Shown here in pieces: positions 2,612 through 26,543 of a stretch of DNA of 31,651 nt. The notes under the pieces were generated by a model. That model saw only the letters and a list, made by a program, of their open reading frames with translations, did no database searches and was not told where the DNA came from. Source of the DNA: a virus. Position numbers and translations under genes: made by a program. How positions within the stretch are numbered: position 1 is the stretch's first letter; every line of letters begins with the position of its first letter. Location of the stretch: IMG/VR virus record IMGVR_UViG_3300027896_001521, positions 1 to 31,651 of that record; one strand, given 5' to 3'.

Positions 2612-3241
2612 ATGGTTGCCACTGTTAGCGACATTAAACTTGGGCGTAAGGCTCGCTTGTATATCAACACTGCCGCAACTTACGCCTCTCCCGCGTGGTT
2701 AGCGGTAAATATCCTCCAGAATGGAACGCTTACGCAAACCATTCAGGATGTAGCATTTGATTCCCGCGCCTCCAAGCATACCAAGCATGACCAAGCGCAG
2801 ATTACAACGGGATACAGTTTCAATGTCCCAGCCACAACCGTCATGGATAGCAATTTTATCAAACTGCAACGGTCATTCTTAGGCGGGCTGAAACTCGATA
2901 TGGCGATAATGGACAATACAATTACAACCGTGTACGCTCGCGGCGTCCGTGGTTATTTCCTTGTTCATAAATTCGACCGTTCCGAAGATATAAACGGCCA
3001 TGTGAATTATCAGGTTGAAATCAAGCCGGCCTATGATGCAACCTACGATCTGATTGATTACACGGTGCTCCCGAAGGCGATTACGTCCGGCTCCGCGATG
3101 ATTGCCGGGGCGTCTGCATACTGGGATTCAACCAGCTTGATAGTAACCTCAACTGTGGGAACTAACACATCTCTCGGTAAGGTTATTACGGCTGTCGCCG
3201 ATGGAGCTACAACTGTAACGGTTGATATGTCCGCAGATTAG
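2612..3241 (+). CDS. Major tail protein (tail tube-like)
   Basis: This 209-residue protein has the look of a siphovirus tail-tube subunit. The N-terminus reads as a strand-rich segment with Gly-Arg-Lys-Ala and Trp-Leu-Ala-Val elements, then a Thr/Gln-rich stretch and an Arg-Ala-Ser motif that resembles the loop in tail-tube proteins. A Tyr/Asp-rich sandwich follows, then a Ser/Thr/Ala-rich C-terminal extension. In related phages this gene precedes the tail assembly chaperones. Here seven glycan-related genes stand between them. The ribosome-binding site is AAGGGA just before ATG 2612. Confidence 0.6.
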   Translation: MVATVSDIKLGRKARLYINTAATYASPAWLAVNILQNGTLTQTIQDVAFDSRASKHTKHDQAQITTGYSFNVPATTVMDSNFIKLQRSFLGGLKLDMAIMDNTITTVYARGVRGYFLVHKFDRSEDINGHVNYQVEIKPAYDATYDLIDYTVLPKAITSGSAMIAGASAYWDSTSLIVTSTVGTNTSLGKVITAVADGATTVTVDMSAD

Positions 3242-3302: not shown

Positions 3303-3935
3303 ATGCCGTCCAATAAAATAATCACATTATCTTTTGACGATGGTACAAACGCTGATAGAGGCGTTATGGAACGCATACGGGCGGTAAAAGGTACGGCAAC
3401 TTTCTATCTTTGCTCCCATTGGATTTCAGAGGCGATATATCCCGGCGTGTTTTGGCCGGAAATATCAAAACTGTATGATGGATTTGAAGTTGGCGGCCAT
3501 ACACAAACACACTGGAAGTTTTGCAAGATAAAAGAAGACCCCGCCGAAATCGCCGCCGGAAAAGAGGAAGTTGAAGCAATTATTAAGAAGCCGCTGAAAT
3601 GCTTTGCATATCCCTATGGGTATGTACACGATAAGGACGCTGTAAGAGCGGCGGGGTTTGAATTTGCCCGAACCGTAAAACAAACTTTTGATATACGGGC
3701 GGATGCTGGCGATCCTTACGAGCAGCCGACATCGTCTACACTCAATATCAATTTTGCAACGAATATAATCCAGACATTCTTTGAACGTGAACAGCCTATA
3801 CACTTGCTGGGGCATTCTTGGCAATATTTGGTAGCGGGGTATAATACGTTGGATGTTCTTTTGAAACGTATGGAAGGAAGCGGATATACATATCTTACTA
3901 ATTACGAATTTTTTAAGGAGACGTGCCGCCCATGA
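3303..3935 (+). CDS. Polysaccharide deacetylase, NodB/CE4 family
   Basis: The 210-residue protein is predicted to remove N- or O-acetyl groups from a sugar polymer using a divalent metal. CE4 motifs are visible: LSFDDG with the base and metal Asp at 12-13, the metal pair HTQTH at 66-70, an AYPYG segment at 102-106 in the position of the RxxPY motif (the Arg is absent), and LLGHS with the late catalytic-type His at 171. ATG 3303 was chosen because AGGAGA (3293-3298) precedes it; an in-frame start 81 bases upstream would overlap the tail gene. It ends in an ATGA overlap with a glycosyltransferase, which points to glycan modification. A peptidoglycan deacetylase is the alternative. Confidence 0.85.
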   Translation: MPSNKIITLSFDDGTNADRGVMERIRAVKGTATFYLCSHWISEAIYPGVFWPEISKLYDGFEVGGHTQTHWKFCKIKEDPAEIAAGKEEVEAIIKKPLKCFAYPYGYVHDKDAVRAAGFEFARTVKQTFDIRADAGDPYEQPTSSTLNINFATNIIQTFFEREQPIHLLGHSWQYLVAGYNTLDVLLKRMEGSGYTYLTNYEFFKETCRP

Positions 3936-4507
3936 TTCCGGAGTTATCTATCTGCATCGGCATATTCAACCGCTGGGAGATATTCCAGAAGGGCTACTCT
4001 GCGTTGGCGGATTCTATTCTTGCCGTGGGGATAGGCTTGGAATTGGTTATTGCAGATTTTACTATCGGCGGTTGCCCTGCATGGATAGATGATGAATGCG
4101 GGGAATCATTTGAAATTGTCGTTTGTAACAATTCCGGGAAGAAATTCACACGTGGAGGGGCGCGAAATGCTGCGGCGATTACTGCAAAGGCTGATAATCT
4201 TTTTTTCATGGATGCGGATATGATTCTTATTCCTGCTGTTTTAAGGCGGGGATTGGAAGTTATAAAAGACGGCAAGGCGTTCTTTCCATATTATGACCGC
4301 ATTACTCCCGATGGATTGTCAACCGAAATTGGCATTGGAACGGGAAACGTATTCTGTTCAAAAGCGGCTTATGAATCCGCTGGACGGTTTCCTGAAATTG
4401 ACGGCTGGGGAAAAGAAGATACTTTGTTTTCTCATTGGTTTAAAGAACGCGGCTTAATGGTAAGAGAGAAGTTTCCGGGGTTCTTGCATCAATATCACAA
4501 AGGATAA
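3932..4507 (+). CDS. GT2 / galactosyltransferase-like glycosyltransferase
   Basis: The 191-residue protein shows a GT-A fold pattern: a short N-terminal strand with a GIFNR-like nucleotide-binding segment (residues 10-14), RGGARN (74-79), the metal-binding DAD at 94-96, and GWGKED at 158-163, the hallmark of the galactosyltransferase C-terminal (Glyco_transf_7C) motif. It should transfer a hexose or hexosamine from a nucleotide sugar. ATG 3932 forms an ATGA overlap with the deacetylase stop and lies 11 bases after AAGGAG; the in-frame GTG at 3923 is only 2 bases from it and is less likely. No membrane segment is present. Donor and acceptor are unknown. Confidence 0.8.
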   Translation: MIPELSICIGIFNRWEIFQKGYSALADSILAVGIGLELVIADFTIGGCPAWIDDECGESFEIVVCNNSGKKFTRGGARNAAAITAKADNLFFMDADMILIPAVLRRGLEVIKDGKAFFPYYDRITPDGLSTEIGIGTGNVFCSKAAYESAGRFPEIDGWGKEDTLFSHWFKERGLMVREKFPGFLHQYHKG

Positions 4508-4513
4508 CATATC

Positions 4514-5077
4514 ATGGGAGATGGAGTTTTAAGCGATAGTAAACTTGCAGAGGCGATGGGATACATCGAGGGCACGGCTGGCGACCTTGCTGAGGTAGGG
4601 GTTTATACTGGAAATTTGTTTAGACGCCTTTGCCGATACGCCGAACAGCGGGAATGTATAGCTTACGCCTATGATTCTTTTGAAGGCTTTGCCGCTCCGG
4701 GGGCATTGGATGACGCCCAGCAATATCCGGCGGGTAGTATGAGTTGTAGTATAGATGAATTTACAAAACTGCTTTCTAGTGCTTCTATATCACATAGATA
4801 TTATGAATTATGCAAGGGCTTCATTCCTGCTTGCTTTTCGCCTTACGATCCTCATTTCGCTTTTATATATATTGACATTGACCACTATCAGCCGACAAAG
4901 GACGCGATTCTATGGGCTTTGAATCATTTGAAATTCGGCGGCGTTCTTGGATTTGATGACGTTAAATTTGGATGGAATCGAGAGGCGGCGGGTGCAATCA
5001 ATGAATTCCTTGCCATTACACCGCATGAAGTTTTGATTCCAGAGGAAAACTGGCAACTGTTTATAAGGCTGAAATAA
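4514..5077 (+). CDS. TylF/macrocin-O-methyltransferase-like SAM methyltransferase
   Basis: The 187-residue protein carries class I methyltransferase features: AEVGVYTGN (residues 26-34) as the SAM-binding loop, YDSFEGF (53-59) typical of the TylF family, and YIDIDHYQP with the metal-type Asp pair at 121-123, followed by a GGVLGFDD strand. TylF-type enzymes methylate sugar hydroxyls, which fits the flanking glycosyltransferases. It is a little shorter than stand-alone TylF proteins. AAAGGA at 4499-4504 supports ATG 4514. Its stop overlaps the next start as TAATG. A sugar O-methyltransferase for a phage-made or host glycan is the best reading. Confidence 0.8.
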   Translation: MGDGVLSDSKLAEAMGYIEGTAGDLAEVGVYTGNLFRRLCRYAEQRECIAYAYDSFEGFAAPGALDDAQQYPAGSMSCSIDEFTKLLSSASISHRYYELCKGFIPACFSPYDPHFAFIYIDIDHYQPTKDAILWALNHLKFGGVLGFDDVKFGWNREAAGAINEFLAITPHEVLIPEENWQLFIRLK

Positions 5078-5622
5078 TGCCGATGGATGCGTATGCCTCT
5101 CATATTCCCATTCTTGCCGGCGTTGCTTCGGCAGTTAAGGGGAATATATTGGAACTGGGTGCGGGATTGTATTCAACTCCCTTGCTCCATGCTCTTTCCG
5201 GCGAAGAAAGAAAAATAGTCAGTTTGGATGATACGTCTTATTGGATTCAGAAATTTAATAGTTATCATACTCCATATCATACCTTCCATTGTGAAAACAA
5301 TCTGCGAGAATGCACTTTACTTACTTGTATTTATTGGCGGCTTGCCTTTGTAGATTGCACGGACGCTATACGCGGCGTATGCGTCAACAAATTAAAACGT
5401 CATGCTGATATAATTATGATTCACGATTCGCAGTGTATGGAGACGTATAATTATGGAATCATAATTAATGAATTTAAAGACAGGATAGATTTTTCATTTC
5501 CAGAGTTGAAAGTCAATCCAGAAGATTTAATTCCGTGGACGAGTCTATTGTCTGATATGGTGGACTTGGAGCGGTTTATGACGCTTGCTCCCAATGCGAA
5601 GAGAGTAAAACATGGGATTTGA
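5077..5622 (+). CDS. SAM-methyltransferase-like protein, copy 1 of tandem pair
   Basis: The 181-residue protein has an N-terminal YASHIPIL segment followed by ILELGAG (residues 24-30) and YSTPLLH, a glycine-rich SAM-binding loop of class I methyltransferases. A later IIMIHDS segment may be the acidic strand near the active site, and IPWTS near residue 153-157 is shared with the next gene. Those shared blocks show that the two genes arose by duplication. Substrate is unknown; the neighbours suggest a sugar. Overlap with the upstream gene is one base (TAATG). Confidence 0.65.
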   Translation: MPMDAYASHIPILAGVASAVKGNILELGAGLYSTPLLHALSGEERKIVSLDDTSYWIQKFNSYHTPYHTFHCENNLRECTLLTCIYWRLAFVDCTDAIRGVCVNKLKRHADIIMIHDSQCMETYNYGIIINEFKDRIDFSFPELKVNPEDLIPWTSLLSDMVDLERFMTLAPNAKRVKHGI

Positions 5623-6151
5623 TTTATATGCCTCTCACTTGCCGATACTTGTCGCCGTAGCGTCAAAAGCTAATGGCAACTTTCTGGAAATCGGAGCGGG
5701 CTATTACTCTACTCCGGTACTACATGCCATTGCCGCTGTGCGCGGGATTGAATTGACGACCGTTGAAACAAACCAACTTTATTATTATATGTTTGCGGAT
5801 TTAATAACCAATACGCATGGTTTTATTGTAGTAAAGCAGTCTACTGATTACAAAATAGAAGATTACGACCGCTGGGGAATGGCGTTTATTGATAACGACG
5901 ACTGCCCAAGAGCAGACCTGATACTGAAATTAAGAGATAAATGCCGCTACATAGTGGCACACGATACCGAAAACCTAAAGCCAAATTACGGTTTCGACCG
6001 GCTGGATGGAGCTTTCCAGTATCGCATTGATTTTAAATTCAAACGTTATCAGATAGAGCCTGAAATTATCATCCCGTGGACATCTGTATTTTCTGATACG
6101 GAGAATCTCGATTGGATTAGAAAGGCATTTCCCGAAAATGGAGAACAATAA
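5612..6151 (+). CDS. SAM-methyltransferase-like protein, copy 2 of tandem pair
   Basis: The 179-residue protein matches the upstream gene along its length: YASHLPIL near residue 6-13, FLEIGAG at 24-30, YSTPVLHA just after, a histidine-aspartate (AHDTE) strand, and IPWTS plus SDTENL near the end. It overlaps its paralogue by 11 bases and the following glycosyltransferase by 14 bases. Sequence between the shared blocks differs strongly, so the copies have diverged and may act on different positions or substrates. Function as an O- or N-methyltransferase is inferred from the SAM loop. Confidence 0.65.
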   Translation: MGFDLYASHLPILVAVASKANGNFLEIGAGYYSTPVLHAIAAVRGIELTTVETNQLYYYMFADLITNTHGFIVVKQSTDYKIEDYDRWGMAFIDNDDCPRADLILKLRDKCRYIVAHDTENLKPNYGFDRLDGAFQYRIDFKFKRYQIEPEIIIPWTSVFSDTENLDWIRKAFPENGEQ

Positions 6152-7787
6152 AATCCCCAACATTCTTAATTTCGTTTGGATTGGAGGCGAATTCCCGCCG
6201 TGGGTTAAACACATTACAGATGAATTCCGCAAACTCAATCCGGAGTTTGAAATAAAATTCCATAATGAAACTATACTGTCCGACGAATATAAAGAGCGGT
6301 TTCAATTCATTCCCGCTATGGATTCACGCTCGGACTTGCTGCGGCTCTCGGCGTTGAAGAAATTCGGCGGCTGGTATTTTGATTGCGATTTCTGGCCGAT
6401 ACGACCTATCAGAGACATTGTTTCGGCGTATGCGCTCTATGACGGCAAAGGTTTTATAACCAAGCAGCATTGGCATAAGAATCAAAGCCTGATATATGCC
6501 AACGGCGTACTTGCTATGCCGCCACAATCATTAGCTCCTGATATGTGGAGGCTCATTGATGATTGGATTGGCCGCATTCCGAAAGAGAAGCCGAACCGCT
6601 GCGACTATGGTCCCCAGCTATTCACAAAACTCATAGACAAATACCGCGATTTATTCATCGAGGCGGAATGGCCTTATTTCTACCCGCTCCCGAAGGCAAA
6701 GGCGCGGGGATTATATAGTATGATTCAAAACGGCACAGCCGATCCTGCAAGATGCCGGTATCTTACTCCGGAATTAAAATGTCAGGTTCCATTTGTATTC
6801 CATTTGTGGATGGGCGGAAAGACTGATTTGTCTTTTGCCAACAAAGACGCTAAACACCGCGTTATATATACGGCTCCGGACTATACGCATCAAGGACGAA
6901 TCAAGCCCGCGATAGTTGATGGGCTGGCGGCACTCGGTTATAATGTCCAGATAGAACAAGATTATCAAGTTGGAGATGACGCTGATATAGTTTGGAACTG
7001 GAACGGAATGAAAGGATTATCTGGGCAGATTCAGGACCGCGCTAAAGAATCAGGCTTGATTACATTCTATTTGGAGAATGGCTTTTTTGACCGCGCAAAC
7101 TATTATCAGATTGACCACAAAGGAATTTTGCATCACGCCTCATGGATGGAAAGTCTTAAAACACCCGCGCCGGCTGGGGGTAAACAGCGTTTTCTTAATG
7201 TTTGGCGCGAACCGCTAGTACCCCAGCGCATTACTGGCGACTACATATTGATTTTAGGTCAAGTTGTCGGGGACTCCCAGCTATACGGGTGCGAGATGGG
7301 CACGGCGGTTGACCTATGCTCTTTAGTACGCCAGCATCTCCCCGCTGATATTCCGCTATATTTCCGTCCACACCCTAAACACGACATCCGAGATACGGAG
7401 CGGGCGCGGCGATACGTTGAAATCTTGAAGAGTAAAGTCATACACGGCAATACTGCATTGCTTGAATCTCCGGATTTGAAGGCGGCAATTTCAAAGGCTC
7501 GCTTTGTTGTTACTATAAATTCTAATGCTGGCAATGAAGCTCTCGCTTGGGGGTGTCCCGTCCTAGCAATGGGAGACAGTGTATATACTCGCGGCGGGGT
7601 TGCCTTGCGAACCACAAAGGATACTTTCGCAGTTGATTTAAAGCGGATGCTTGACGGATGGAAGCCAGAACAAGCAGCGGTTGAAAATTATTTGCATTGG
7701 TTAGCGGCGCGGCAATGGAACTTGGATGAGATACGCAGCGGAGAAGCGTTAAAACCTCTAATTGAGGCGGCATACAAAACACCATGA
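6138..7787 (+). CDS. Two-domain glycosyltransferase: GT32-type DXD domain + KpsC/KpsS-like domain
   Basis: The 549-residue protein is the largest in the cassette. Residues 6-110 look like the GT32 sugar-binding DXD family: IPNILNFVWIGG near the start, SRSDLLRLSAL (63-73), then GGWYFDCDF with the metal-binding DCD at 82-84. After a linker near residue 230 the second half resembles capsule polysaccharide transferases of the KpsC/KpsS (Kdo) type: a GQVVGDSQL segment, RPHP at 410-413, and an INSNAGNEAL...GCPVLAMG block around 460-479 that matches the nucleotide-sugar binding end of that family. It overlaps both neighbours. It could add two successive sugars, the second perhaps Kdo-like. This arrangement is unusual for a phage. 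Confidence 0.75.
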   Translation: MENNKIPNILNFVWIGGEFPPWVKHITDEFRKLNPEFEIKFHNETILSDEYKERFQFIPAMDSRSDLLRLSALKKFGGWYFDCDFWPIRPIRDIVSAYALYDGKGFITKQHWHKNQSLIYANGVLAMPPQSLAPDMWRLIDDWIGRIPKEKPNRCDYGPQLFTKLIDKYRDLFIEAEWPYFYPLPKAKARGLYSMIQNGTADPARCRYLTPELKCQVPFVFHLWMGGKTDLSFANKDAKHRVIYTAPDYTHQGRIKPAIVDGLAALGYNVQIEQDYQVGDDADIVWNWNGMKGLSGQIQDRAKESGLITFYLENGFFDRANYYQIDHKGILHHASWMESLKTPAPAGGKQRFLNVWREPLVPQRITGDYILILGQVVGDSQLYGCEMGTAVDLCSLVRQHLPADIPLYFRPHPKHDIRDTERARRYVEILKSKVIHGNTALLESPDLKAAISKARFVVTINSNAGNEALAWGCPVLAMGDSVYTRGGVALRTTKDTFAVDLKRMLDGWKPEQAAVENYLHWLAARQWNLDEIRSGEALKPLIEAAYKTP

Positions 7788-8440
7788 ACCTATTAAATAT
7801 TTATGACATATTCCCCGGATACACCGCGTTTATACTCGGCACGGGACGGAGCCTTGACGCGCTATCCGTTTCCAATCTATACAAGAAAGAGGCGGTTACT
7901 ATTGCTATAAACCGCGCTATTGGTATCGCAGAATGCGCCGTTGACTCTAACTCTCTTTTCTGGTTAGTACAAGATGACTGGAAAAGCAATAGAACTCCGG
8001 GGCTATGGGATGAATGGAAATCCAACATGGATAGGGGAGAATTTTACGGATTGTTTCCATCCGTGTTTCTTTCACGCGAACAAGGAAAGATTGACGCTCC
8101 GAAAGGAGATAATATAATAACATGGGAGCGGGATGATTCCGGAACGTATCGGACGCATTCCAAATTAAAGACAGCACAACTTAATAAGCTATTCACCTTC
8201 TGCGGCTCTGCGGCTCCGGCTATACACGCCGCTTGGATTATGGGATGCAATGAAATCCGGCTGGTAGGTTGCGATGGAGGCGATTCAGTGGCGCACTGTT
8301 TAAGCCAATGGTATGATTTATCAAAGTCGGTGACGGCAAATCATACACTATCTCTGGACATTGCGCGGAATTTATGCCATAAATTAAAGTTAAAGTTGTT
8401 TGAATTAGATAACATAGGAGAATGGAGGGAGAACAAATGA
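7784..8440 (+). CDS. DUF115/GT42-like protein (possible glycosyltransferase)
   Basis: The 218-residue protein begins with a strand followed by GTGRSL (residues 19-24) and later an IAINRAIG segment, the arrangement seen at the N-terminus of DUF115/MptE-like proteins and GT42 sialyltransferases. A CGSAAPAIHAAWIMG helix and a strand ending LVGCDGG complete the pattern of that Rossmann-like fold. It is coupled by ATGA on both sides, closing the glycan cassette. A nucleotide-sugar transferase role is inferred; the family also includes non-transferase enzymes. Metal or catalytic residues cannot be fixed by eye. Confidence 0.55.
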   Translation: MNLLNIYDIFPGYTAFILGTGRSLDALSVSNLYKKEAVTIAINRAIGIAECAVDSNSLFWLVQDDWKSNRTPGLWDEWKSNMDRGEFYGLFPSVFLSREQGKIDAPKGDNIITWERDDSGTYRTHSKLKTAQLNKLFTFCGSAAPAIHAAWIMGCNEIRLVGCDGGDSVAHCLSQWYDLSKSVTANHTLSLDIARNLCHKLKLKLFELDNIGEWRENK

Positions 8441-8850
8441 GCAAGTTCAAAGATAACAAAGGCCGTGAATGGAATCTATCTCTTACTGTGGGATTGGCTA
8501 AAGACATAAAAGAAAAGCTCGGAGTTGATTTAGTCAATATCAATAATGAGATAATCGAAAAAATGTGCGTCAATCCATATCTCCACGTGGAAGTATTGTG
8601 GATGTTTTGCAAGGGGCAAAATGATATATCGGCGGAGGAATTTGGTTACTCGCTGGGCGGGGATTCGATAGACGATGCAACCGCCGCAATGATTGAGGCA
8701 ATAGTGGATTTTTTCCCGCGAAGCCGCCGGGGAGCGGCAAAGATAATGGTGCAGCGGATGAAGGAAATGACGAGCAACCAGACGGAGGAACTGGAACGCC
8801 GGATACGAGCGATTCCGGACGCCGAAATAAACAAGATAACTGGCGGATGA
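8437..8850 (+). CDS. Tail assembly chaperone (gpG-like)
   Basis: The 137-residue protein starts with a FKDNKGREWNL segment followed by a valine/lysine helix and LGVDL, the pattern of small siphovirus tail chaperones encoded just before the tape measure gene. GGAGG at 8424-8428 lies 8 bases before ATG 8437, which also forms ATGA with the previous stop; the ATG at 8422 has no spacing to a ribosome-binding site. The product should bind the tape measure protein during tail assembly. It ends in an ATGA overlap with the second chaperone gene. No tail-tube domain is present. Confidence 0.65.
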   Translation: MSKFKDNKGREWNLSLTVGLAKDIKEKLGVDLVNINNEIIEKMCVNPYLHVEVLWMFCKGQNDISAEEFGYSLGGDSIDDATAAMIEAIVDFFPRSRRGAAKIMVQRMKEMTSNQTEELERRIRAIPDAEINKITGG

Positions 8851-9238: not shown

Positions 9239-9913
9239 ATGGGATTATGGAAGCAGATGATAGCTGAAGGATACAAAGACAACGGCAAAGGAGCTTCCGT
9301 TTCTGGTTTTATTATGTTTAATGATGATGCAATATTAAGCTATGTTGATGCAGCAACGCGAGATGGATTATCCGCCGCTGGTGTAATGGTTAGACGTACT
9401 GTGATGCAGTCTATTCGATTTAAACCGGAATATGGAAGGGCGTCAACTCGCGGAATGCCTCCGTTCACTCATACGGATTCGCCATATCATAGTTTAAGAA
9501 AAGCAATTCAATTTGCATATTATCCGGCAGAAAAAATGGTACTGGTTGGAGCTACATTAACCGGAGATATAAAGATTGGAAAGATACACGAATTTGGCGA
9601 CTCAATAAATAGTAAACACATCCGAGAATTTCACGTCGGCGATTATGGAGCTATTCGACATTATTATATTTACGGTCAGCGCATGGGATTATATTATTCC
9701 AATATCGAAGGGCGGGCTTCGCAACAGATTGTTTGGCATATACGGTTAAAAACGCAGGCTCTAGTAGATAACGCCAATGAGACCTTGAAAATGTTTGTTA
9801 AGCCGGATAAGCCGCGTAACTACCCGAAACGCGCTTTTATGAAACCGGCATTAGATGAAAACATACCAAAGATTGCGCCTTTGTTTCGGAAGGCGATAAG
9901 GAGCGCGACATGA
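9239..9913 (+). CDS. HK97 gp10-like / tail completion protein (putative)
   Basis: The 224-residue protein ends in a PKRAFMKPALDENIPKI-type segment, close to the C-terminal arginine/proline-rich helix of HK97 gp10-like and tail-completion proteins. An alpha/beta middle with a VGATLTGD strand is compatible with that fold. It is placed between tail chaperones and tape measure rather than before the tail tube, where gp10-like genes usually lie. GAAAGAAAACAACA upstream is a weak ribosome-binding site. It overlaps the tape measure gene by ATGA. Confidence 0.5.
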   Translation: MGLWKQMIAEGYKDNGKGASVSGFIMFNDDAILSYVDAATRDGLSAAGVMVRRTVMQSIRFKPEYGRASTRGMPPFTHTDSPYHSLRKAIQFAYYPAEKMVLVGATLTGDIKIGKIHEFGDSINSKHIREFHVGDYGAIRHYYIYGQRMGLYYSNIEGRASQQIVWHIRLKTQALVDNANETLKMFVKPDKPRNYPKRAFMKPALDENIPKIAPLFRKAIRSAT

Positions 9914-11172
9914 GCACAGGATCAATACCAGCGGGCGAGGCATACATAAAGATAACAACTGAAACCGGCGGACTTAATACGGGGCTTGCAGAGTCTCAAA
10001 CTAAACTAACTGGCTTCGGGAGGGGATTGGAACAGGTTTTACGGCACATTCCCGGATTAGAGGGAGCGGGGGGAGCATTAAGCCGCGCTATGCAGGGAGC
10101 GGTAAATGGTTCTATCAGTTATGGCGTAGCATTAGGCGCGGCGGCGGCAACCGCTTGGGGTGTCGTGCAACTCGTTGATAAATTAGTAATGTATCATGCC
10201 AAACTTAACAGCGAAGCAGAAAAGTATTATAAACTTGGAGAAAAACAACGTACAGATGAAGAAAAGCATTTGGCGCGACTTGCAGAAATGGAAAGACTCG
10301 GGCGGCTTACTAAGCAAGAAACATTGGAAGCCAGACGATTATTGTTGGCAATGGAAAAGGAAACCGGAGATAAATCAGGCATTGGACTTACTGCCGATAA
10401 TAGATTGGTAGGAGTTGCAGAATTCCGCAGGAAACTTATTGAAAAAGAATATCAAGAAGAAAACGTGCAGGCGCAAAGGGCTTTGAATCAAGCGAGAGAA
10501 AATGCGGCAAAATTACAAAATGAAATAAATACCCATCCGGTGGGAGAATGGTTTAAAACTGATAAATATAAAGAACTGATAAAAAAGCAGGACGAATATT
10601 ATACTAAAGCTATCGAATATCAGCATACATTAGATTTTCTTGCCGCTGATTATTCAAAAAAGTTATCTGAAATATCACGTGAAGAACAGAAAAAATTTGA
10701 TGCACAGGGAAAAGCAATAAGAAAGTTTCAAGAAGAATGGGGAAAGATGGATGATGAAGACGCGGCAATTGCAAAAAGAAAGTCTGACGAAATAGTCAGA
10801 AAACAAAAAGAAGAAGAAGATAAAAAACAAAGACACTCCGATGAATTAAATAAATGGTTATTCAGACAAGACGAAGAAGTACAAAAACAAGAAACAACGC
10901 GAATTAATGATATTAATACGCGAAACGTGCAAGATAAGAACAGTAAATTAAAAAATCTCACAGATGAACTAGATCGCCTTCAAGCTCATCAATCAATTGG
11001 TATGGCAATGGGTACTTTTTCCGGAACGATAGCTTCTCAATTGGGGCGGGCTGGGGGTATGTCCGAGACCCTGCAAACTTTAAAAACAATATCGGCGGAT
11101 ATTGCGGCAATAAAACAAATAGAAGATTCGGGTTGGCAGGAAGCTAAAGATTCCTCTACAGTTAGCAATTAG
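9910..11172 (+). CDS. Tape measure protein, short
   Basis: The 420-residue protein starts with an AYIKITTETGGL segment and a hydrophobic helix-turn pattern typical of tape measure N-termini, includes a hydrophobic stretch at about residues 72-98 (Ala/Val/Gly-rich), and then a long Lys/Glu/Gln-rich coiled coil from about 100 to 370. At the usual rise of about 0.15 nm per residue it would give a tail near 63 nm, shorter than most siphoviruses. The setting (two chaperones upstream, tail-tip genes downstream) fits. It may instead belong to a short-tailed relative with a tape-measure-like internal protein. Confidence 0.7.
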   Translation: MSTGSIPAGEAYIKITTETGGLNTGLAESQTKLTGFGRGLEQVLRHIPGLEGAGGALSRAMQGAVNGSISYGVALGAAAATAWGVVQLVDKLVMYHAKLNSEAEKYYKLGEKQRTDEEKHLARLAEMERLGRLTKQETLEARRLLLAMEKETGDKSGIGLTADNRLVGVAEFRRKLIEKEYQEENVQAQRALNQARENAAKLQNEINTHPVGEWFKTDKYKELIKKQDEYYTKAIEYQHTLDFLAADYSKKLSEISREEQKKFDAQGKAIRKFQEEWGKMDDEDAAIAKRKSDEIVRKQKEEEDKKQRHSDELNKWLFRQDEEVQKQETTRINDINTRNVQDKNSKLKNLTDELDRLQAHQSIGMAMGTFSGTIASQLGRAGGMSETLQTLKTISADIAAIKQIEDSGWQEAKDSSTVSN

Positions 11173-26007: not shown

Positions 26008-26211
26008 ATGAACGACCGCATAAAATGGACTATCCGTATTTTTGATAACGCCTTCCATCGTTATTGCTGGACGGCAAGAATTGACGGTCAAAAATTCGAG
26101 GTTAGGGGTACAGTAGATTTTGAAACGGATAAAGCCGCGCAGACGGCGGCGGAGCAAACACTTGAATTCATTGGATGGAATAAAGACCCTGATAAGAAAG
26201 AGAAACCATGA
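26008..26211 (+). CDS. Hypothetical protein, 67 aa
   Basis: The protein is beta-rich in its first half (WTIRIFDNAF and WTARIDG strands) and helical after residue 40. GAAGGC precedes the start. No family recognised. It overlaps the DUF1937 gene by ATGA. Confidence 0.5.
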   Translation: MNDRIKWTIRIFDNAFHRYCWTARIDGQKFEVRGTVDFETDKAAQTAAEQTLEFIGWNKDPDKKEKP

Positions 26212-26543
26212 TTTACGTCTGCACACTTTATAGCCATAAGTCAAAACGTATCCGCCAAAAAAGATATGAATTTGCTTGCCGTATCGTTGCGGATTTAATT
26301 AAGAATGGTTCGCCAGCGTTTTCTCCGATTGCTTATTCTCATGTGCTCGCAATAGATTACGATATGGGCACAACATGGGCGGACTGGGAGTATTTCGATT
26401 TTGATATGCTACGATTTGCTTCTTGTGTTCTTGTCGTTAAAAGTCCGGGCTGGAAAAAATCCAAAGGAATTAAAGCTGAAATTGCAAAGGCAAGAGAGCT
26501 AAAGATTCCTGTCATTTTCAGAAAGTGGCCGAAAAATGGGTAA
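26208..26543 (+). CDS. DUF1937-like protein (nucleoside 2-deoxyribosyltransferase fold)
   Basis: The 111-residue protein starts with a strand and YSHKSK, then an R.EFACRIVADLIKNGSP helix-turn and SPIAYSH, and ends with VVKSPGWKKSKGIKAEIAKARELKIPV. This pattern matches DUF1937, related to nucleoside 2-deoxyribosyltransferases. Such proteins are common in phages and may act on nucleotides or cofactors; no activity is known. The start overlaps the previous stop. Confidence 0.65.
   Translation: MIYVCTLYSHKSKRIRQKRYEFACRIVADLIKNGSPAFSPIAYSHVLAIDYDMGTTWADWEYFDFDMLRFASCVLVVKSPGWKKSKGIKAEIAKARELKIPVIFRKWPKNG

Follow-up and report, generated by a model that had tools for sequence, protein, structure and literature searches.

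The subject of this study is a cassette of seven glycan-related genes at positions 3303-8440 of the window, by which we mean the whole of IMG/VR virus record IMGVR_UViG_3300027896_001521, a linear fragment of 31,651 bases without Ns. The seven open reading frames (ORFs) all point in the same direction and run from the tail-tube gene to tail-chaperone-like genes. Sequence comparison leads us to regard the cassette as probably (at roughly 0.7) a module for virion glycosylation that is expressed late, acts in the cytoplasm and carries its own acceptor peptide along. A more specific version, which we put forward tentatively and hold to be rather less than an even bet, is that the mobile module combines enzymes for a methylated glycan containing 3-deoxy-D-manno-octulosonic acid (Kdo) with a portable acceptor tag, that it moves as capsid cement gene plus cassette, and that in the window fusion of the tag has retargeted it from head to tail. 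One cassette protein of 549 amino acids (aa), which fuses a GT32-type glycosyltransferase (GT) module to a KpsC/WbbB-type module, is referred to here as the core enzyme.

Insertion hotspot and cement allele in related phages

Three scans with the capsid protein yielded 164 distinct loci (numbered with the prefix L), of which 15 have sugar genes, 112 lack them and 37 were too short. The gene order of these relatives is terminase, portal, major capsid protein (MCP, PF25209), cement (PF09956), sugar genes, head-tail joining (PF25138), neck, tail tube, chaperone and tape measure. The core enzyme lies between the MCP/cement and the head-tail genes in L001, L002, L004-L006, L008, L010-L013, L015, L016, L018 and L023. 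It is the sole sugar gene at this site in L008, L015 and L023; elsewhere its partners are GT2 enzymes, methyltransferases, GT47, a sugar epimerase or a YdjC-type deacetylase. In 72 of the 112 cassette-lacking loci the head-tail joining gene follows cement immediately, and the gap between the two has a median of 8.5 nt over 74 measured loci. Cassettes thus insert at a precise hotspot, the cement/joining interval, to which the window, with its cassette behind the tail tube, forms the exception. An earlier reading of the window, made from its letters alone (the sequence-only reading), had proposed comparing related phages with and without the cassette, which now gives the hotspot in 15 loci and a closed-up site in 72 relatives. 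It had also said that finding the cassette elsewhere in relatives, as a routine host-derived island, would speak against it. The site does differ, and it still lies inside the virion operon. The cassette also crosses capsid types: in L112 (10-3807) a TylF-like methyltransferase, a methyltransferase paralogue and the core enzyme stand directly behind a GP7-like capsid gene (PF20911).

The histories of the two neighbouring capsid genes differ in what they say of the cassette. On the MCP tree the cassette label changes at least six times on firm branches and 11 times on the best tree. Because a single cassette-bearing clade is rejected by the MCP data (approximately unbiased test, p 1e-69) and allowed by the cement data (p 0.71), cement and cassette appear to be exchanged among phage backbones as one block.

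Cassette-bearing cement alleles share a serine in a loop, which is found in 15/15 cassette-bearing loci, in 4/112 cassette-lacking loci (Fisher 3e-16) and in 2/72 strict empty sites. Of 1010 cement column tests this one gave the strongest result; the top MCP column, out of 2035 tests, reached 2.5e-7. All six independent pairs on the MCP tree agree with the association (p 0.03). The 15 serine-bearing cement proteins are otherwise strongly diverged, and the column is variable in the 112 others. Overall Ser/Thr content is slightly enriched in the cement of cassette-bearing phages (16.4 v 12.7%); the signal is the single column. In the first set the serine was present in 12/13 cassette-bearing loci, and we read the exception, L080, as cassette-negative at the hotspot, since its GT32-like gene lies far from the capsid genes. 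New data beyond that set comprise 58 cassette-lacking loci (one with the serine), three newly recovered cassette-bearing loci (L012, L013 and L016; 3/3 with the serine) and L132, a locus too short to classify in which the serine was seen first and a methyltransferase gene was then found directly behind cement.

Several further observations concern the hotspot. A methyltransferase domain is naturally fused to a GT2/GT7C domain in hotspot genes of L107 (159-1454) and L011 (8171-9529). In seven cassette-lacking loci (L030, L041, L042, L044, L051, L058 and L062) cement carries a long C-terminal extension (217-345 aa in total), which is an alternative capsid decoration at the same locus. L005 has a very strong hairpin (z -5.9) and a T-rich stretch at 7551-7640, just 3' of the cement gene, as if to damp cassette transcription. 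A hairpin or attenuator conserved at this position was considered and rejected: it is real in L005 only, and the window's z of -0.5 is no better than that of shuffles.

The tail-tube/cement fusion and the cassette genes of the window

The window's left flank holds the cement sequence itself. ORF 2612-3241 encodes a tail-tube protein that ends in the second half of a cement protein, 56 residues long; the sequence-only reading had recognised a tail-tube-like gene here, correctly as to the fold, and had missed the cement half. In the AlphaFold2 model (pLDDT 84) a tail-tube fold is followed by a separate small beta-domain (pLDDT about 90), ahead of which linker residues 143-147 are of low confidence and flexible. 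The Foldseek matches of the model are the tail tubes of Sf11, monocin, a gene transfer agent and lambda (gpV). The fusion keeps the loop serine (PKAITSGSAM; Ser159, codon 3086-3088), and the cement fragment starts five residues before it. As read from the sequence, a block of 3' cement half plus cassette is inserted at the tail-tube/chaperone junction, and the tail tube has therefore gained a C-terminal half-domain with the serine. At 40-47% GC the cassette matches the rest of the record and not the known relatives (52-75%); the event is therefore not a recent one from those lineages. Other long ORFs that match the cement half, directly behind MCP, are probably overlong start calls.

The features of the region are:

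2612-3070, plus strand: tail-tube protein, complete domain (residues 1-153; BLAST to the L001 tail tube 1e-9, alignment, model)
3071-3241, plus strand: in-frame C-terminal extension, cement second half (PF09956) from the PK motif, with the candidate acceptor Ser159 (36-48% identity to cement C-halves; Pfam 1.8e-5)
3303-3935, plus strand: polysaccharide deacetylase, CE4/NodB-type (PF01522 4.9e-12; FDDG, HxxxH and AYPYG motifs intact)
3923-4507, plus strand: GT2 glycosyltransferase (PF00535 3.8e-6; DADM and GWGKED present)
4514-5077, plus strand: TylF/Methyltransf_24-like O-methyltransferase (PF13578 9.4e-9, TylF 9.6e-5)
5077-5622, plus strand: methyltransferase-like paralogue 1 (alignments; hotspot homologues in relatives)
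5612-6151, plus strand: methyltransferase-like paralogue 2 (33% identity to paralogue 1; hotspot homologues in relatives)
6138-7787, plus strand: core enzyme, 549 aa, N-terminal GT32-type module (PF04488 1.1e-7) and C-terminal KpsC/WbbB-type module (PF05159 8.5e-11)
7784-8440, plus strand: weakly DUF115/MptE-like protein, last cassette gene (PF01973 5.6e-5, under the gathering score)
8422-8850, plus strand: tail-assembly-chaperone-like gene, bounding the inserted block on the right (3.7e-24 and 3e-19 to L002/L001 genes)

The seven ORFs and their position inside a tail-assembly operon, both taken from the sequence-only reading, were confirmed: the upstream model matches tail tubes, and the downstream gene is an ortholog by position and sequence, its L002/L001 matches sitting between tail tube and tape measure (against PHROG it matches a tail protein at E 0.06 only). 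The statement that all genes are coupled by overlaps needs one correction. Across the block 3303-8850 there are six overlaps (13, 1, 11, 14, 4 and 19 nt, the last being that of the final cassette gene onto the chaperone-like gene) and a sole gap of 6 nt between the GT2 and TylF-like genes.

The core enzyme is the best characterised of the cassette proteins. The same two-module protein occurs in at least 15 IMG/VR contigs and on one contig of a Lentisphaerae metagenome-assembled genome (MAG), with 31-40% identity to that of the window. The PF04488 match of the N-module is above the cut-off in the Pfam scan, and its DXD (D82/D84) is invariant in 16 aligned homologues, as are E313, Q375xxxD379 and H412-P413 of the C-module. 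When compared with PDB, the C-module profile matched KpsC (5.8e-5) and WbbB only. The AlphaFold2 model (pLDDT 83) gave KpsC (1.3e-10, TM-score 0.6 of target) and WbbB as best Foldseek folds, and lower matches for the N-module were GT-A enzymes such as SetA and YeGT. In the retaining beta-Kdo transferases KpsC and WbbB, the invariant nucleophile motif QXXXD supplies the catalytic Asp, and catalysis further involves HP and a Glu (PMC10148158). The profile pairs EhGF of the core enzyme with LEDGF of KpsC, and a catalytic role of E313 is suggested by this analogy. A host origin of the fusion enzyme was rejected: among 388 genomes in the phylum of L023, the MAG contig, both modules occur on that contig alone, the others having single modules, and the fusion therefore has the look of a phage product. 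GT32-like proteins homologous to the N-module occur in other contexts in L017 and L019-L022, in some cases on contigs as large as 165 kb. Among the genes of the record none was recognised as serving Kdo synthesis. A tblastn search with the core enzyme and one methyltransferase paralogue against 50,697 isolated phage records gave no match at 1e-3, nor did cassette DNA or the tail-tube protein match isolated phage genomes, and scans with the chaperone and tail-tube proteins found no close relative.

Among the remaining enzymes, the calls of deacetylase, GT2 with GWGKED and TylF-like protein, like that of the GT32+KpsC-like fusion, had been made from the sequence alone and received firm Pfam support. 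The sequence places the true start of the deacetylase at ATG 3303. The GT2 enzyme has 42% identity to the hotspot gene L001 8873-9490, and TylF-like homologues stand at the hotspot in L004, L005, L010, L012 and L112. The two 180-aa paralogues had been called methyltransferase-like. Both contain a motif of the S-adenosylmethionine (SAM) type, LE(L/I)GAGxYSTPLLH, followed by an acidic residue; they matched nothing in Pfam or NCBIfam, a seven-member profile gave a weak PDB match to plant O-methyltransferases (E 0.008), and profile comparison with the TylF-like set gave no significant link. It is plausible that they are methyltransferases. The DUF115-like call on the last gene agrees with its PF01973 match, which stays under the curated cut-off, and the protein had no useful match in PDB. 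In the Pfam and membrane checks none of the seven proteins showed a convincing transmembrane segment, no flippase, polymerase, bactoprenol or polytopic protein was found among them, and no export gene is present with the cassette.

As to the rest of the record, no terminase, portal or major capsid gene was recognised in it. Because it is a linear fragment, the head genes are out of view, and the head module probably lies outside the record, beyond its left end. Its gene content includes tail, lysis-like, exonuclease, Sak4-like, RusA and primase genes, and the early region encodes a DUF1937/DUF4406/DUF7768-like protein (26208-26543, 5e-13). The gene in tape-measure position (9910-11172) encodes 420 aa, most of those in relatives being longer (about 600-850 aa); this would imply either that the tail is short or that the gene is split. 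The block ends share only a 7-mer as a direct repeat, which is at chance level, and promoter-like matches in the region are near chance.

Proposed mechanism and competing explanations

We propose that the enzymes would act on a virion protein in the cytoplasm of the infected cell, before or during assembly; a cytoplasmic site is suggested because neither a convincing membrane segment nor an export gene was found. One GT may place the first sugar on the cement loop serine (motif PKxTxSxSA), the putative acceptor. The core enzyme would extend the glycan and, through its C-module, add Kdo or a related CMP-activated acid; the methyltransferases would cap the glycan and the deacetylase would trim it. 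The predicted product is a short, O-methylated, probably Kdo-containing glycan, for which GTs, methyltransferases and deacetylases would be exchangeable helpers. Donors would come from the host, and CMP-Kdo, the presumed donor by analogy with KpsC and WbbB, from its lipopolysaccharide pathway. In the relatives, module and cement allele stand together behind the major capsid gene, and the enzymes would act on the capsid cement. In the window the glycan would decorate the tail tube through the cement half-domain, the tail tube being the likely target because it acquired half of the cement protein. The benefit, we infer, is shielding, or altered surface charge or adhesion. The sequence-only reading had offered tail glycosylation as one of three possible functions; virion glycosylation is indeed the best supported of them, the primary target in relatives being the capsid cement.

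Some findings weigh against this proposal. The serine column was first noticed by scanning 54 cement proteins, a set nested in the enlarged one. The serine could be a hitchhiking marker and not the acceptor, because cement alleles with the cassette may share descent. No cement gene was seen in L112. No other tail tube in the sample carries a cement half-domain, so that the fusion in the window is unique. The donor may be another CMP-ulosonic acid, and the substrates of KpsC and WbbB are glycolipids or O-antigen rather than proteins.

The possible passenger role of the serine leads to a rival that we consider rather unlikely, namely that the virion is glycosylated on another protein (MCP or the tail-tube core) and that the serine is linked to, and so marks, a single co-transferred cement allele. 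It would fit the cement tree, which is compatible with a single cassette-bearing clade, the cassette of L112 directly behind a GP7-type capsid gene, and the glycosylation of capsid and tail-tube C-termini that is described for mycobacteriophages (PMC12619734). Against it, 15 strongly diverged cement proteins all have the serine and the position varies in 112 others, no column of the MCP is comparable, and the fragment that the window retains begins just five residues before the serine. Doubts about the record itself take a different form: the fusion is known from this record only, its head genes are missing, and a single metagenomic contig could carry an assembly fault, with the cassette really behind a normal cement gene. 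A simple chimera is improbable because two independent joins (tail tube/cement and cassette/chaperone) would be needed, both clean and the first in frame; the record is also free of Ns, and its cassette shares the GC content of the record and not that of the relatives.

Two further explanations would remove the virion as target. Alteration of the host surface polysaccharide, for superinfection exclusion or serotype conversion, by genes merely parked in a late operon is suggested by the resemblance of the KpsC-like module to capsule enzymes and by the frequency of CE4 deacetylases and GT2 enzymes in surface polysaccharide pathways. We judge it distinctly unlikely: the cassette lacks the flippase, polymerase, bactoprenol and polytopic proteins looked for, its placement is late and not lysogenic, and its strict cement neighbourhood, co-inheritance with cement and association with the cement serine speak against it. 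Host-surface change and host-glycan mimicry, the other two functions that the sequence-only reading had offered, thus found no positive support. Glycosylation of phage DNA or another small molecule is highly improbable. Many phage GTs do act on modified bases, according to PMC12619734, yet no base-hypermodification gene was recognised among the early genes examined, and a virion-operon position beside cement would be unusual for DNA modification.

Comparison with known systems

Few phages are known to have glycosylated virions, and most of these are mycobacteriophages. In mycobacteriophage virions (Che8 and related), capsid and tail-tube subunits are reported to be glycosylated at their C-termini, forming a glycan shield (Freeman et al. 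2023, via PMC11256854 and PMC12619734). Phage-encoded GTs are common to these systems and to the window and its relatives. The differences lie in the proposed acceptor, here cement or a cement-derived tail extension, and in the enzyme, a GT32+Kdo-transferase-like fusion; the search of 50,697 isolated phage records with the core enzyme and one methyltransferase paralogue found no related enzyme. Corndog, a cluster O mycobacteriophage, encodes an O-methyltransferase, two GTs and a GlcNAc-transferase (gp35-gp38) between portal and protease, for which its authors proposed capsid modification (PMC4351075). It resembles the window in having methyltransferase and GT genes inside the virion operon, so that the earlier remark that such a set was not known in such a place was only partly right; no GT32-KpsC fusion, deacetylase or cement partner is described for it. 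Because mycobacteriophage virion glycosylation and Corndog precede the present case, the principle and the late-operon location were already known. Gtr-type serotype conversion depends on a flippase and a polytopic membrane glycosyltransferase, neither of which was found among the seven cassette proteins.

With KpsC (GT107) and WbbB (GT99) the core enzyme shares QXXXD, HP, the Glu in E-x-GF and a GT-B-like fold; it differs in carrying an additional GT32-type module and in coming from phage head or tail operons. The DUF2190/PF09956 cement protein is the upstream neighbour in relatives, and its second half is fused to the tail tube in the window; a loop serine in cassette-bearing alleles, rare in others, sets these proteins apart, and the tail-tube fusion is new in the sample. 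No prior description of the cassette, the hotspot or the fusion was found in the open-licence papers searched. The novelty lies in how the enzyme is built, in a cement hotspot that has empty counterparts in other relatives, in a cement serine inherited along with the cassette, and in the relocation of half a cement gene, together with the cassette, to the tail tube. Comparative genomics thereby yields a testable enzyme-acceptor pair of one core enzyme, one small cement protein and one predicted serine. If the proposal is true, phages would swap surface glycans as enzyme-plus-tag blocks, a short C-terminal tag would be able to redirect a glycan to another part of the virion, and the Kdo-transferase fold known from KpsC and WbbB would have been recruited to protein glycosylation.

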